From Bacillus sp. ISL-34 (lineage in GTDB: Bacteria > Bacillota > Bacilli > Bacillales > DSM-1321), in contig NZ_JAGGQJ010000005.1 of NCBI RefSeq assembly GCF_018613325.1, positions 1 through 64,000 on the forward strand: a stretch of DNA of 64,000 nt, given 5' to 3'. The position numbers were made by a program, and so were the translations under genes. Of this stretch, positions 5,174 to 49,948 are shown in pieces; within the stretch, counting starts at the first letter, position 1, and each line of letters opens with the position of its first letter. The notes below the pieces were generated by a model. The model ran no database searches. It saw only the letters and a list, made by a program, of their open reading frames with translations, and was not told the origin of the DNA.

Positions 5174-6610
5174 CTAAAGCATTCTTTTTTTTCGGCTTTT
5201 TTTCTCTTGCAGCCATTTTTTCAAGAAGAAAAAGCCCATGATACCCGAAATGATTAGGCCGCTTGTCGTCACCATGACAGCTACCCATTCGTATAAGGTG
5301 TAATTCATATAAGCTTTCCACGGAAACTTCCCTTTCCAATCTTCAATATATAGATTCATTCCGAATATCCCGGAGACAACCGTATAAATCGTTAGTATTT
5401 GCAAGAGATAATTACTGCTTTTCCCAGACAGTTTATCCTGATTTTGATAAAGGTAGGAAAGTGTTTCCTTCACTTCTCCATAGAGAGGCGCAATCCTGAA
5501 GGTTTCATCCGTTTTTTTGAATAACTCCTTACCGACTGCCGTACTATTGACTTCAGTAAATAAGTACTTTGCAGAAAACTCAGTGATCATGAAAATCAGC
5601 TGTTCCGTATCCGATTGATCTTTTTCCACATCTATCCGTGAATGTTCATGAGCCAATTTGAGCAGTACGATTTTATAATAAAAGAAAAGCAACACTGTAT
5701 AAAAATGCTGGCCGTACATTTCTCTTGCCAGTTCCTGTTCCAGTTTACCTGTCGCTTTCGTGACACATGCGAAATGATACATGCTTGTTACATAATAGGT
5801 TTCCTTGCCCCACCTGTCATATACCCTTTCTTGATAGTACTTTTCGATATAATCAGGGTTTAATGCGCCTATATACGGCTCACCATCATTGTCATAACCG
5901 TTCAGCTCACTGATCCTGAATAAGTCATTTTTTGAAATATCACGATTCTCAGGGAATGCAGTAAAACTGATCACGTACATTCTTTCATCGATGAAGAAGG
6001 GTAAACTGCCAAAATATGTCGGGTCCGCTTGTTCTTCATCCATATATTCTTCCATTGGCGGCAATAGTTCATTGAAGATGAAATCCTTCACTTGTTCATA
6101 CTGATTTTTCCTATAGCCGACTTTCGTTTTTACCTCATCATCAGCAATCGGTTCGAGGATTCGGAATGTATCGCTAAAATAGAGCACATCATCATGCGAA
6201 AGCCCTTCAGGCAAAGTGACACGAAGATTCATCATGCCAATATGAAATGGGCATATGAAGATATCTATAGAGTTGATAATAAATGGGGTATTTAGATAGG
6301 GTGATTCGAAGGTACAATCAATATCCAGTTTTTTTGTAAAACGCCGTAAGCCTTCCTTCTGTTTTGCATTACCCGGAAATAAAATCGGCTCGATGTAAGG
6401 CATGAAATACTTTTCCAGTTTACGGTGCGAAACTTTATGGCCACCATAATATTGGCTTTGTTGTTCCATATCTTTCAAATTCAAAAAAACGAAATCGTTC
6501 TCAAACAACTTTTCCACAAATTTTTCAATCTTATTTCCTTCAAGCGTAAATGGAAAAATGTACTGTTGAAAAGCTCGCTTCGTGGGATCATTCTTTACTT
6601 TCACATCCAT
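5174..6610 (-). CDS. CorA-like divalent cation transporter
   Basis: A 478-residue protein with a long cytosolic N-terminal part and two C-terminal membrane segments (about 405-420 and 440-460). The pore signature GMN of the CorA/Mrs2/ZntB superfamily is present at about 417-419, followed by a short acidic and aromatic periplasmic-type loop and a Lys/Arg-rich C-terminal tail. The topology fits a pentameric Mg2+ or Co2+ channel. The N-terminal region is longer than in typical CorA (about 315 residues) and I see little other resemblance, so the substrate is uncertain. A poor Shine-Dalgarno region precedes the ATG; downstream lies the dispersed repeat and long hairpin. Confidence 0.75.
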   Translation of the reverse strand: MDVKVKNDPTKRAFQQYIFPFTLEGNKIEKFVEKLFENDFVFLNLKDMEQQSQYYGGHKVSHRKLEKYFMPYIEPILFPGNAKQKEGLRRFTKKLDIDCTFESPYLNTPFIINSIDIFICPFHIGMMNLRVTLPEGLSHDDVLYFSDTFRILEPIADDEVKTKVGYRKNQYEQVKDFIFNELLPPMEEYMDEEQADPTYFGSLPFFIDERMYVISFTAFPENRDISKNDLFRISELNGYDNDGEPYIGALNPDYIEKYYQERVYDRWGKETYYVTSMYHFACVTKATGKLEQELAREMYGQHFYTVLLFFYYKIVLLKLAHEHSRIDVEKDQSDTEQLIFMITEFSAKYLFTEVNSTAVGKELFKKTDETFRIAPLYGEVKETLSYLYQNQDKLSGKSSNYLLQILTIYTVVSGIFGMNLYIEDWKGKFPWKAYMNYTLYEWVAVMVTTSGLIISGIMGFFFLKKWLQEKKSRKKRML

Positions 6611-7064
6611 AAAATATATCCTCCGATTAAACTGCGATGAACACAGGATTTATTCATCTTGTTTCTTATATTTACCCATGTATATACAAACAAAACGAAA
6701 CATATTATAGAAATAAAGTGGACAAATTATCCAAAGAAAAAAATCCCCCAAGCACATGCTCGGGGGCCATCGAAAAGAGTTCTTCAACCCTCTTCACTTT
6801 AGGGTACTAGAAACTGATGTTTCTAATGAAAAATCCGATATTCGGACCATTTTAGCATTTATTTTATGTAAGATAAAACACGGAATTCCTCCATATTTGG
6901 GCTTTACCTCTTATTATCATCCAATAAACCCTTATATGCAGGAATTCACAGAAGAAAATATAACTATAGGAATAATCCCAAGATCTTTTTGTTCATCACT
7001 TTATATTAAAATCACGTTTTAACTAAGAAAAAGTGGGTAAATAAAAAAGCAAAGGAGAGACAGC
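6611..7064. other. Gene-poor gap with one hairpin
   Basis: No convincing gene. The only clear structure is a hairpin at 6745-6766 (CCCCCAAGCA with TGCTCGGGGG, G-U paired in minus-strand RNA) beside an A-run at 6736-6743. It reads as a minus-strand terminator, yet no minus-strand gene is visible immediately upstream. A plus-strand ORF from 6756 begins inside this hairpin and has no ribosome site. Confidence 0.5.
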
Positions 7065-7208
7065 ATGAAAACCGATAGCTATAAACAACACTTTAAATTT
7101 TTTGAAAGAACAAATAACGCTAAACCAAGTGAACGGAAACAAATGAGCGATTTCATCAAAAAGAAAATGAATGCTCAAAACAGTCATTTAAATGGTAAAA
7201 ACTCATAA
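7065..7208 (+). CDS. Small hypothetical basic protein, 47 aa
   Basis: An ATG preceded by AAAGGAGAG at 7051-7059 (spacing about 6) opens a 47-codon frame ending TAA at 7206-7208. The product is hydrophilic and Lys/Asn-rich (begins MKTDSYKQHF and contains KPSERKQMSDF), with no signal or membrane segment. The stop codon sits in the left arm of a terminator hairpin. I do not recognise the family. The good ribosome site and terminator support a real gene. Confidence 0.65.
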   Translation: MKTDSYKQHFKFFERTNNAKPSERKQMSDFIKKKMNAQNSHLNGKNS

Positions 7209-7236: not shown

Positions 7237-7554
7237 TTAAAATGCGATTTCATTTCCCTGAAGGTTGTGCTTCACACATTTCTTGATACCGATTACATTC
7301 AAAAAATGTTGAATTTTCTTCATCGAGGTCGCCTGATATTCATCTACAATGGAAAACTCTTTAAGATAAGCGATTTTTTCTTGTACATCTGTATCTATAT
7401 GATCTTGGCTGGATTCTTTTTCATCTGATTTTTTGCATGTGTACACCACAGCTTCACCAATTCTCCTGGTTGCCTTATCAAAATAAAAAGAAAACACAAT
7501 GGCACATTCATCATCGTAAAAAGAGGGTTGAACTTTCATATTAATATCAATCAT
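7237..7554 (-). CDS. Hypothetical protein, 105 aa
   Basis: An acidic, soluble 105-residue protein without signal peptide or membrane segment. GGAGAGAGGTG lies about 9 nt before the ATG. It converges on the 47-residue gene and shares its terminator. I do not recognise a family. One Cys pair region (YTCKK and IKKCVKH) is visible but does not define a metal motif. Confidence 0.6.
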   Translation of the reverse strand: MIDINMKVQPSFYDDECAIVFSFYFDKATRRIGEAVVYTCKKSDEKESSQDHIDTDVQEKIAYLKEFSIVDEYQATSMKKIQHFLNVIGIKKCVKHNLQGNEIAF

Positions 7555-7732
7555 TAACCTTACACCTCTCTCCGTTTTGTTATTTATACTATAACAAAAT
7601 CATTAAAAGGAAATAGGCGTTACAAACTACGCTCACGTTTCTTCCACACCTACCAAATGGACCTTACACTCCCCATTCATAGCTAATTATAACTACAGGA
7701 ATATGCGCAAAAGAATATTCATTTAATATTAA

Positions 7733-7759
7733 TAAAAAAACATCTTCAATTGAAGATGC
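7733..7759 (-). terminator. Terminator of the pheromone-like peptide gene
   Basis: The palindrome CATCTTCAA/TTGAAGATG (7741-7758) is followed on the minus strand by seven U residues (A-run 7734-7740). It lies 30 bp past the peptide stop codon, marking it as a discrete transcription unit. Confidence 0.8.
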
Positions 7760-7788
7760 TTGAATGATTAATAGGAAGCTTCATTTAC

Positions 7789-7902
7789 TTATTTATATAA
7801 ACCTGGAAGTTCTGCGTAAAGGCCTGGTAATTCGCTTGGGACAATAACGAAAGCAGCGATGATAAGAAAAGATACGACTAATGCTTTAGTACTTTTTTTC
7901 AT
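7789..7902 (-). CDS. Candidate PapR-like pheromone precursor, 37 aa
   Basis: The ATG at 7900-7902 is preceded by AAAAGGAGG (core at 7911-7915, spacing 8) and the frame ends TAA at 7789. The product is 37 residues: a Lys-led hydrophobic export segment (about 1-22) and then PSELPGLYAELPGLYK, a tandem heptapeptide (SELPGLY, AELPGLY) plus a terminal Lys. B. cereus PapR is a 48-residue Sec-exported precursor whose active C-terminal heptapeptide is ADLPFEF; the A/S-acidic-L-P-x-x-aromatic pattern is shared. The gene is divergent from the PlcR-like regulator at 8099. Inference: the secreted precursor is trimmed to one or two signalling heptapeptides and re-imported. It has its own terminator. Confidence 0.8.
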   Translation of the reverse strand: MKKSTKALVVSFLIIAAFVIVPSELPGLYAELPGLYK

Positions 7903-7934
7903 AGGTCATTCCTCCTTTTCTTCTAAAAAAATAT

Positions 7935-7974
7935 TGGTTAAAATAGAAAAAAATTCTATAGTTATATTTAACCA
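7935..7974. promoter_or_regulatory. Inverted repeat, candidate operator of the PlcR-like regulator
   Basis: TGGTTAAA (7935-7942) and TTTAACCA (7967-7974) form an 8-bp perfect inverted repeat. Inside it ATAGAA (7943-7948) pairs with TTCTAT (7954-7959). It sits 33 bp upstream of the peptide start codon and 125 bp from the regulator start, a suitable position for control of the peptide gene or of both. Confidence 0.5.
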
Positions 7975-8098
7975 CAATTCTTAAAACCATATATTTCGAC
8001 TAAAGAATCTATTTAAACCGTTCAGGACCTGTACATACCGCTTTCACCGATTTTTCATAACAAAATATAACTCTAGGCATATTTTAAGGAGAATCAAA

Positions 8099-8992
8099 AT
8101 GGATTTTTTTGCAGTTGGACAAAAGATCAAAGAGCTACGTAAACAAATCGGGCTTTCCCAGGAAGAGTTGGCAACCGGTATTTGTACACAAGCACAGATC
8201 AGTAAGATTGAAAAGGGCGATGTCTATCCATATGCATCCACTCTCTACTTAATTTCCCAACGTTTAGGCGTTGATGTGAACTATTTTTTCGATATTGGAA
8301 TGACCCCTAGGCTGGATTACGTGGAGGAAGTGATTTATCAATTAAAAATAGCCAGAAGAACCCGAAATTATGAGGAAATGCAGCAAATTGTGAAGGCTGA
8401 GGAAAACAGTCCCCTCTTTCTTCAGAATAAAAAGAATCATCAATTGATTCTTTGGCACAAGGGAATATACGAATATGAAAAAAATAAAGATTTAGATAAA
8501 GCCATAGAATTCATCAATCAGGCCATCTCCATTACTCATACGACCGATAAAATTTATTCGGAACGGGAGCTTGAAATCTTAAGCAGTCTTGGTGTAATGT
8601 ATGTTGCCGAAGAACAGTACGAAAATGCATTTGCCTTGTTAAGGAAAGCTTTAGATCACTTGAAAGCCCTGCCCTTTTTGACGGATAAAACGCTAAAGAC
8701 GCGCCTATCCTATAATTTTGGTAGAGTGTTAACACGCCTGGGCCGATACGAAGATTCCATTGCTTGCTGTCAAGATGCCATAAAGTGGTGCCTCGAACAT
8801 GACCAATTATATGCTTTAGCAGATTTACATTACCATTTAGGTTACAATTTTGAACTCGTAGGTAACTTCGAAGAGGCAAAGGAGTACTTGGAAAAATCTG
8901 CGTTTCTATTCAACTTACAAAAAAACCATACCTTTGTTTCATTCATCAACAAAAAGCTGGACAGTTGGAAGAACGGATTGAAAATAAACTAA
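8099..8992 (+). CDS. PlcR-like HTH-TPR transcriptional regulator (RRNPP family)
   Basis: A 297-residue protein. An XRE-type helix-turn-helix occupies about 5-60 (IKELRKQIGLSQEELA, then QISKIEKGDVYPYASTL); the remainder to about 290 is helical and TPR-like, with repeats such as ERELEILSSLGVMY, LSYNFGRVLTRLGRYEDSI and LHYHLGYNFELVGNFEEAK. Length and order match B. cereus PlcR (285 residues) and NprR-type regulators, in which the TPR domain binds a re-imported peptide. AAGGAG lies 7 nt before the ATG. The gene is divergent from the 37-residue peptide gene and ends at tandem hairpins. A phage repressor is less likely because of the TPR array and the peptide partner. The targets are not evident from this window. 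Confidence 0.85.
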   Translation: MDFFAVGQKIKELRKQIGLSQEELATGICTQAQISKIEKGDVYPYASTLYLISQRLGVDVNYFFDIGMTPRLDYVEEVIYQLKIARRTRNYEEMQQIVKAEENSPLFLQNKKNHQLILWHKGIYEYEKNKDLDKAIEFINQAISITHTTDKIYSERELEILSSLGVMYVAEEQYENAFALLRKALDHLKALPFLTDKTLKTRLSYNFGRVLTRLGRYEDSIACCQDAIKWCLEHDQLYALADLHYHLGYNFELVGNFEEAKEYLEKSAFLFNLQKNHTFVSFINKKLDSWKNGLKIN

Positions 8993-48796: not shown

Positions 48797-49948
48797 TTAC
48801 ACCTCCACATCATAAGGCTGATAATCTTTTCTAAGGGGATACCCTTTCCAATCATCACCTAGTAAAATTCGCTTTAAATCAGGGTGTTCATAAAAGTTAA
48901 TACCTAATAAATCATATGCCTCACATTCTGGCCAATTTGCTCCTGACCATAATGGGACCAATGAATGAATAACGGGAGAATCCCTATCAAGCTTCACCTT
49001 CAAGGCAACTGATTGGTTCATTTTGAATGAATGTACATGCACATAGATTTCCATATGGGATTCAAAATCCGTACCATGAAGTTCCGATAAATACGAAAAG
49101 TTAAGCTGTTCATCGTATCGCAGAAATTTTGCTATTGAGAAATATGTATCTGGATCAGCCACTAAAGTGGGTACATCTTTTGATAACCTATTAATATAGT
49201 GCTCTAATAATGCCCCTTGTCCTAAATGGCTTTCAATAGCAGAAACAATTTGATCGAGTTTAGACTGATTTGGAGGAGGTTCGCTAGAGACGTTAACTTC
49301 CTCGCTTTCCTTTACGGCAGTCCTGTTCTTCGCAGCAGCAGTCGCTTTTGCCTTGGCAGCGGCTGCTGCCTTTGCCTTGGCCGCTGCCGCCGCCTTTTGC
49401 TTCGCTGCATCCATTTCTTCCGGCTTTTCCGCCGCTTCTTCTTTCGCCCGTTTTCGAGCCAGTGCTGCCGCCTTCGCCTTGGACGCGGCTGCCGCTTTTT
49501 GTTTCGCTATTTCCGTTTCTTCTTCCGGCTTTTCCGCACTTTCAGCTTTCGCCTGTTTTCGGGCAAGTGCTGCCGCCTTCGCCTTGGCCGCGGCTGCCGC
49601 TTTTTGTTTCGCTATTTCCGTTTCTTCTTCCGGCTTTTCCGCACTTTCAGCTTTCGCCTGTTTTCGGGCAAGTGCTGCCGCCTTCGCCTTGGCCGCTGCC
49701 GCCGCCTTTTGTTTCGCTATATCCGTTTCTTCTTCCGGCTTTTCCGCACTTTCAGCTTTCGCCTGTTTTCGGGCAAGTGCTACAGCCTTCGCCTTAGCCG
49801 CTGCCGCCGCCTTTTGTTTCGCTATTTCCGTTTCTTCTTCCGGCTTTTCCGTACTCTCAGCCTTCGCCTGTTTTCGGGCCAGTGCTACAGCCTTCGCCTT
49901 GGCCGCTGCCGCTGCTTTTTGTTTCGCTAAGTCTTCCTTTTCACTCAT
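48797..49948 (-). CDS. nuoC: NADH-quinone oxidoreductase subunit C with long Ala/Lys repeat extension
   Basis: 383 residues: the last 155 or so form the normal 30-kDa subunit domain (VALKVKLDRDSPVIHSLVPLWSGANWPECEAYDLLGINFYEHPDLKRILL, and a DWKGYPLRKDY end). The first 220 or so residues are low complexity: five copies of a 35-residue unit (AKQKAAAAAKAKA, then ALARKQAKAES, then AEKPEEETEI-like) and a sixth partial copy. The extension is basic/acidic alternating, probably long helix. In most bacteria NuoC is 150-220 residues, so this nearly doubles it; B. cereus-group NuoC has a shorter tail of similar composition. The ATG follows a GGGTG ribosome site. Confidence 0.93.
   Translation of the reverse strand: MSEKEDLAKQKAAAAAKAKAVALARKQAKAESTEKPEEETEIAKQKAAAAAKAKAVALARKQAKAESAEKPEEETDIAKQKAAAAAKAKAAALARKQAKAESAEKPEEETEIAKQKAAAAAKAKAAALARKQAKAESAEKPEEETEIAKQKAAAASKAKAAALARKRAKEEAAEKPEEMDAAKQKAAAAAKAKAAAAAKAKATAAAKNRTAVKESEEVNVSSEPPPNQSKLDQIVSAIESHLGQGALLEHYINRLSKDVPTLVADPDTYFSIAKFLRYDEQLNFSYLSELHGTDFESHMEIYVHVHSFKMNQSVALKVKLDRDSPVIHSLVPLWSGANWPECEAYDLLGINFYEHPDLKRILLGDDWKGYPLRKDYQPYDVEV
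49353..49945. repeat. 105-bp tandem repeats within nuoC
   Basis: Five near-identical 105-bp units (35 codons) plus a partial copy. Central units 3 and 4 are almost identical at the DNA level, implying recent duplication or gene conversion, and copy number could vary by slippage or recombination. Confidence 0.85.

Follow-up and report, generated by a model that had tools for sequence, protein, structure and literature searches.

Do a 37-codon gene ending in a tandem heptapeptide and the HTH-TPR regulator gene transcribed away from it form a quorum-sensing circuit of the PlcR-PapR kind, as the original prediction proposed, and what would such a circuit control? We analysed the pair in a stretch of 64,000 nucleotides of the Bacillus sp. 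ISL-34 genome (the window) and in related genomes. The module reading is supported: PlcR is the best match of the regulator, the divergent pair is conserved, and the peptide has an x-acidic-L-P-x-x-aromatic layout.

The propeptide gene

The features of the divergent pair in the window are as follows.

7789..7902, minus strand: propeptide gene, 37 codons, MKKSTKALVVSFLIIAAFVIVP-SELPGLY-AELPGLY-K
7836-7816 (SELPGLY) and 7815-7795 (AELPGLY), minus strand: two heptapeptide copies in the propeptide gene
7911..7917, minus strand: propeptide ribosome site AAGGAGG, 8 nt 5' of the ATG
7738..7761, minus strand: terminator-like hairpin 3' of the propeptide gene
8099..8992, plus strand: PlcR-like receptor gene, 297 aa; HTH at residues ~6-65, then a TPR domain

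The consensus ribosome site, the hydrophobic segment (residues ~8-22) and the C terminus made of SELPGLY, AELPGLY and a Lys, all described beforehand for this ORF, are indeed found at 7789-7902(-) and its 5' side. By eye, no A-x-A site separates the membrane segment from the repeats in the window precursor. The hairpin comes from the terminator prediction, which alone was retained; a scan for consensus promoters gave fewer sites than in shuffles and was discarded.

Among 18 intact close relatives, the ORF varies at 2, 1 and 11 sites in the first, second and third codon positions, respectively. The corresponding numbers are 4/3/37 in four five-copy propeptide genes from Rossellomorea-like loci, and 27/19/32 in four more diverged genes coding for 42-aa propeptides, the bias shrinking with distance. 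This bias indicates that the propeptide frame is translated and constrained.

The receptor

The prediction of a divergent HTH-TPR regulator of PlcR length holds for the 297-aa protein, in which both HTH_3 and RNPP_C score above the Pfam gathering cut-offs. Its best sequence and structure matches are to PlcR, with a full-length profile match. PlcR is also its closest solved relative over the full length, at 21% identity in the structural alignment and with a high whole-chain rmsd of 6.5-10.5. The AlphaFold model (pLDDT 89) shows an HTH part, followed beyond residue 72 by about five pairs of helices. By its N-terminal HTH and its predicted TPR peptide-binding domain, the receptor can be assigned to the RRNPP/RNPP type.

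In PlcRa, N205 and K208 of an inner helix contact the peptide main chain according to docking (excerpt of PMC3519770); N206 and R209 of the receptor align with them, a position match made by eye. R209 is near-invariant in 49 representative receptors, and N206 varies between H, N and S. Over the same 49 receptors, pheromone distance correlates with TPR distance (r 0.25). The partial r given HTH distance is 0.19 (2000 permutations, p 0.0005) for relatives that are non-independent, which gives weak support to pheromone distance tracking TPR distance beyond HTH distance.

Occurrence of the pair among relatives

We searched a genus set of 36 Peribacillus genomes and found receptor orthologues with 57-100% identity in 32 of them. 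G028 and G035 harbour a sole receptor relative at 38% identity, and the genus genome search detected no receptor in G002 and G003. A divergent peptide gene occupies the same place beside 31 of the 32 orthologues. The exception is G008 (locus L004), where a near-identical peptide sequence has one extra A in an A-run. We discarded this case as a true peptide loss, given a single A-run insertion in an assembly that is 87% complete; error and mutation are both possible.

Genus, family, order and named-contig searches yielded 150 loci (L001-L070 and L094-L173), which were read by script. Five of them (L136, L163, L165, L166 and L169) did not pass the orientation test and were left out, and the remaining 145 were reduced to 112 non-redundant loci. 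Receptors were called operator-bearing if the operator described below occurs with <=3 mismatches 15-60 nt before the receptor gene, as it does in 84 of the 112. Divergent propeptides of the [E/D/P]LPxx type are encoded next to 73 of these 84 receptors, including the more distant receptor of L044 with its YDLPNQH peptide. The named hosts of the divergent pair include Peribacillus, Cytobacillus, Rossellomorea and Pseudoneobacillus. A Shine-Dalgarno match precedes all 73 genes, the script having favoured such starts. The start-to-start gap between propeptide and receptor genes is 156-205 nt; both starts were chosen by script with preference for a ribosome site, and the extreme gaps (156-190 nt) partly reflect this choice.

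The script found no divergent peptide gene at the other 11 operator-bearing receptors, namely those of L004 (frameshift), L045, L162 and a Niallia-containing clade (L150, L151, L153-L157 and L159). L156 has another peptide candidate, on the receptor strand. The receptors of this clade are candidate eavesdroppers, or their peptides may have been relocated.

In a receptor tree of 104 leaves, 51 of the 56 leaves labelled as divergent fall into a single 62-leaf clade (support 0.82), which also includes eight operator-only and three other leaves; several supports in the tree are lower. Five further loci have no operator and show divergent candidate peptides, some of them clearly false (L049, L050).

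Two other sets of loci were noted. Paralogous receptors of the same genus (L047, L053, L051 and L044, 29-38% identity) have divergent NDLPNQH, YELPYEH and YDLPNQH peptides, and at three of these four loci no operator was found at <=3 mismatches. PlcR-like receptors of L048, L050, L052, L184 and L185 have candidate peptide genes downstream (AKLPVQH x2, GLPxQH x4, AGLPPQH x2, LGLPSQH and LGLPNQH). From their sequences, the downstream-peptide loci would represent a sister code with a C-terminal His.

A largely local operator

Alignment of the intergenic regions revealed a near-invariant block beside the receptor gene, AAATATnCCTAnAGTTATATTT, which is an imperfect palindrome. The pattern ATATnCCTAnAGTTATATTT occurs four times in the window at <=3 mismatches, where 0.17 is expected.

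8063..8082, minus strand: operator O1, ATATGCCTAGAGTTATATTT, 5' of the propeptide promoter, ending 16 nt before the receptor ATG
7685..7704, minus strand: operator O2, 130 nt before the start of the gene for a 105-aa protein
6956..6975, minus strand: operator O3, before a structured RNA
7950..7969, plus strand: weaker operator-like match with 3 mismatches, overlapping the propeptide -10

The weaker match is possibly a feedback site, or merely the -10 sequence itself. At <=1 mismatch, the 36 genus genomes contain 65 matches, of which 61 are within 2 kb of the receptor gene; the reversed pattern, used as a control, matches once in the same genomes. None was found at this threshold in the receptor-less G002 and G003. 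Two of the four non-local matches, in G028 and G035, are located ~200 nt before the structured RNA, which keeps its operator in these genomes though the main locus is missing. The other two, G016:C1:3943386 and G035:C8:96395, each with one mismatch, lie away from the system's known parts and are unexplained.

We rejected a genome-wide regulon, as the genome of the window itself has 23 matches at <=3 mismatches versus 27 for the reversed pattern. It has four operator matches with 0-2 mismatches, three of which are local.

Promoters at a fixed distance from the operator

Each of the three operators in the window is followed by an extended -10 element on the same strand.

7966..7974, minus strand: extended -10 (TGG TTAAAT) of the propeptide promoter, 91 bp past O1
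7588..7596, minus strand: extended -10 (TGT TATAGT) of the 105-aa gene, 91 bp past O2
6849..6857, minus strand: extended -10 (TGC TAAAAT) of the RNA promoter, 101 bp past O3

This spacing rule was first noticed by eye in the window, and all loci were then used to test it, counting operators in the direction of transcription alone. On the propeptide strand of 66 of the 73 loci, an extended -10 (TGnTWWART) starts 90-92 bp beyond the operator, for a background of 0.018 per 26 bp. The promoters of the 105-aa gene have the strict -10 at the same distance in 26 of 53 cases, and most others harbour, as judged by eye, TGnTAGGAT or TATGAT variants at the same place. For the RNA promoter, the extended -10 is found 100-101 bp past the operator in 29 of 31 cases. 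Four more distant loci that have the operator and divergent peptides or receptor relatives (L187, L188, L195 and L198) show no strict -10 at 91 bp, L188 having TAAAAT there. The gap between the peptide and receptor genes is constant because the operator spacing to the -10 is fixed.

The operator centre would lie at ~-113 (peptide and 105-aa genes) or ~-124 (RNA) from the predicted starts, which are near 7959, 7581 and 6842, respectively. The two distances differ by about one turn of the helix, the period at which class I activator sites recur. The fixed spacing between operator and extended -10 suggests activation. O1 itself covers TATAAC, a possible -10 of the receptor gene identified by eye. 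Autoregulation of the receptor is therefore probable, and its level is probably held in check via O1.

The position of O1, which ends 16 nt before the receptor start and over TATAAC, is a typical place for repression, and the weaker match overlaps the propeptide -10. Both would suit the opposite sign of regulation, in which the free receptor, acting from the operator, represses the neighbouring genes and the peptide relieves this repression. TprA-PhrA and Rgg3 work in this manner, with repression by the free receptor and relief by the peptide. However, the good operators stand far upstream (~-113/-124) of extended -10s and at a fixed distance, an arrangement that suits activation better, and we consider the opposite sign unlikely.

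Targets and neighbouring genes

The genes and the RNA found on the 3' side of the propeptide gene are the following.

7237..7554, minus strand: gene for a 105-aa protein, co-inherited putative target; GNAT-like model, without Pfam family
6738..6840, minus strand: conserved structured RNA with a terminator hairpin, between O3 and the 478-aa gene
5174-6610, minus strand: gene for a 478-aa protein downstream of the RNA; GMN motif and two C-terminal membrane segments
7065-7208, plus strand: 47-aa ORF with a ribosome site, between the RNA promoter and the 105-aa gene

Among 397 genomes, 33 have the 105-aa gene, each as a single copy located no more than 4 kb from the receptor gene. It is missing from the fetched flanks of 16 of the 84 operator-bearing receptors, and the operator (<=4 mismatches) is missing before it in nine of the 68 loci that carry it. 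A PDB profile search with the protein returned nothing below E 0.5. The acetyl-CoA pyrophosphate loop of GNAT proteins has the motif Q/R-x-x-G-x-G/A; in alignment A2, the 105-aa protein shows no glycine conservation from the fourth strand to the helix. Its predicted model looks GNAT-like.

Within the window, no match to an Rfam family attains the gathering score. Between 6000 and 9300, three matches below threshold (E 0.09-0.15) were dismissed, and the RNA was not retained as a known riboswitch. The 47-aa ORF is conserved at 62-100% where it was found in the genus. We rejected it as the main target of O3, as the -10 at fixed distance and the conserved RNA are on the opposite strand. The 478-aa protein has no Pfam match and appears CorA-like by eye. 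Elsewhere in the window, the gene at 48797-49948(-), in what by eye is an NADH dehydrogenase region, codes for a protein with a long repetitive N-terminal extension of Ala, Lys and Glu.

Putative pheromone copies are conserved as peptides

The two ELPGLY cores of the window precursor differ by six synonymous and no non-synonymous changes over 18 bases, and Tandem Repeats Finder reported nothing for the repeat, even at score 30. With identical protein cores and no DNA repeat detected, the repeat is kept as peptide and not as DNA. Among the 73 propeptides, 39 have one copy, 26 have two, two have three, two have four and four have five, so that 34 of the 73 carry 2-5 copies. We distinguished 31 pheromone signatures, including ELPGLY, ELPSVF, ELPSVY, ELPPML, ELPTQF, ELPSEY, ELPNIH and ELPTTQH.

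The DNA of the two copies differs in 69 of the 70 copy pairs from 20 distinct multi-copy arrays. Between copies, there are 251 synonymous versus four non-synonymous differences, in arrays some of which are related, share history and are not independent. All four non-synonymous differences correspond to one Tyr/His exchange in L020. The signature changes between species, yet both copies bear the new signature. This identity could result from gene conversion with subsequent silent drift, or from parallel selection exerted by the receptor. In either case, every copy is subject to one and the same constraint, which would be expected of copies that are all read by a single receptor.

The longest array is in L174:1537-2229 (genome G141), which codes for a 230-residue propeptide with 14 ELPTMY copies at a 14-residue period. 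Its 14-copy core shows 226 synonymous and no non-synonymous differences, and the whole units without the last one show 368 and 22, respectively. This is more than twice the highest count reported in an excerpt of PMC9765709, which is six. The three genomes of genus g27 have DLPFPPWVF x2 (L175), IPFPPRML x5 (L176) and ELPTMY x14 (L174). L195 has five ELPPVH copies. In L188 (genome G361), two consecutive propeptide genes lie by one receptor gene, the first with ELPSIH x1 and the second with seven ELPPIH/ELPSIH copies.

These data also bear on whether the peptide serves another purpose, being secreted as an antimicrobial or surface peptide while the receptor senses something else. The Niallia-containing clade, with receptor and operator kept without a detectable divergent peptide gene, would fit such a role. 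Against it stand the strong constraint on the 6-residue core in every copy with a signature that changes between species, the peptide-binding PlcR fold of the adjacent receptor and, weakly, the tracking of receptor TPR distance by the pheromone. This makes another purpose very unlikely.

Comparison with known systems

The system resembles PlcR-PapR of the Bacillus cereus group in the HTH and TPR fold of the receptor, in the x-acidic-L-P-x-x-aromatic layout of the peptide (ADLPFEF for PapR; excerpt of PMC3519770) and in its 16-bp operator with TAT...ATA ends. It differs in that the peptide gene is divergent rather than downstream and here encodes two copies. This contrast had been part of the original prediction, and it stands, the pair being divergent across the clade. 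In Bacillales, the rule is a pheromone gene downstream of the receptor gene (excerpt of PMC9765709). The operator TATnCCTAnAGTTATA, aligned by eye, has a C where the PlcR box has A6, and a C at this position of the PlcR box leaves 2% activity (excerpt of PMC2464732). PlcR boxes are found at various distances from 45 scattered genes, according to the same excerpt. The PlcR box TATGnAnnnnTnCATA with its scattered regulon is thus unlike the operators described here, which are almost all local and at a fixed distance. PlcRa-PapRa is also similar, with a PlcR paralogue, a peptide gene upstream of the receptor gene and the heptapeptide CSIPYEY. According to the excerpted account, plcRa is not autoregulated and its targets carry no palindrome (PMC3519770).

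Tandem pheromones have been described for Phr-3T and Phr-105 and in association with NprR, PlcR, Rap and AimR, with up to six copies (excerpt of PMC9765709), and the maturation of tandem Phr peptides has been studied (excerpt of PMC11343458). As in these propeptides, several identical or near-identical pheromones are present per precursor. Unlike them, multi-copy precursors here make up 34 of 73, reach seven (L188) and 14 (L174) copies and belong to a divergent architecture that spans genera. RRNPP_detector, a method based on receptor-propeptide pairs, gave 34 high-confidence clusters (excerpt of PMC10075063); its default precursor limit of 100 aa would miss the 230-aa precursor with 14 copies. 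Judging from excerpts, the clade may already be present, unnamed, in these data or in a later structural tree (PMC12700828). Our literature search, with most subscription journals and all preprints outside its scope, found no account of this system. RRNPP pairs and tandem pheromones are known kinds; as far as we searched, the conserved divergent architecture, the phase-locked operator, the targets and the copy number are new.

A model of the circuit

We favour a PlcR-like autoinducing switch of the RRNPP type with a multi-copy pheromone and a small, mostly local regulon, which we regard as probable. It is built on the genes and their conservation, the constraint on the copies, the operator with its fixed spacing, the co-inheritance of the parts and the PlcR-like fold. 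The 37-residue propeptide would be exported and then yield ELPGLY-type peptides, most likely the S/A-ELPGLY heptapeptide, two per precursor. The mature peptide would be re-imported and bind in the TPR groove of the receptor, and the peptide-bound receptor would bind the operator pattern given above. From ~113 bp upstream of the start, or ~124 bp in the case of the RNA, and on one helix face, it would activate the extended -10 promoters of its own propeptide gene, creating a positive feedback, of the 105-aa GNAT-like gene and of the structured RNA. The main doubts concern the sign of regulation, the release of the peptide from a precursor without a clear cleavage site, and the roles of the outputs.

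In the window precursor, the repeats almost directly follow the membrane segment, with no clear signal-peptidase site by eye. This arrangement might instead reflect a cell-autonomous timer, the short precursor being cut in or near the producer and acting mainly on it. The spacer is longer in other members of the family, and in some of them A-x-A-like sites can be discerned by eye. Export is also established for known RRNPP peptides, and we regard the timer as quite unlikely.

Building on the autoinducing switch, a bolder proposal, to which we give roughly even chances, is that of an ancient RRNPP circuit that occurs in several genera of the Bacillaceae and has an almost private regulon. Three promoters with extended -10s would be served by one type of operator placed 91 or 101 bp before them: those of the multi-copy pheromone gene, of the gene for a degenerate GNAT-like protein and of a regulatory RNA with conserved structure. 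The copy number (1 to 14) would evolve as the gain of a positive loop, with the receptor forcing the copies to remain identical. In a sister genus, the RNA is divergent from a second receptor gene for which no peptide gene was found.

The conservation of a divergent pair across the Bacillus family, with 1 to 14 pheromone copies, points to a cell-to-cell signalling circuit. It provides a natural series in soil bacteria, in which one receptor family is associated with 1 to 14 identical pheromones per precursor. Why a precursor should carry several pheromones, be it for dose, diversification or robustness, is directly testable with this series. The operator at a fixed distance makes a clean prediction for the activation of RNA polymerase by a PlcR-type regulator. 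Lastly, a GNAT-like protein and an RNA as private targets suggest an output unlike the known virulence, sporulation and competence regulons.
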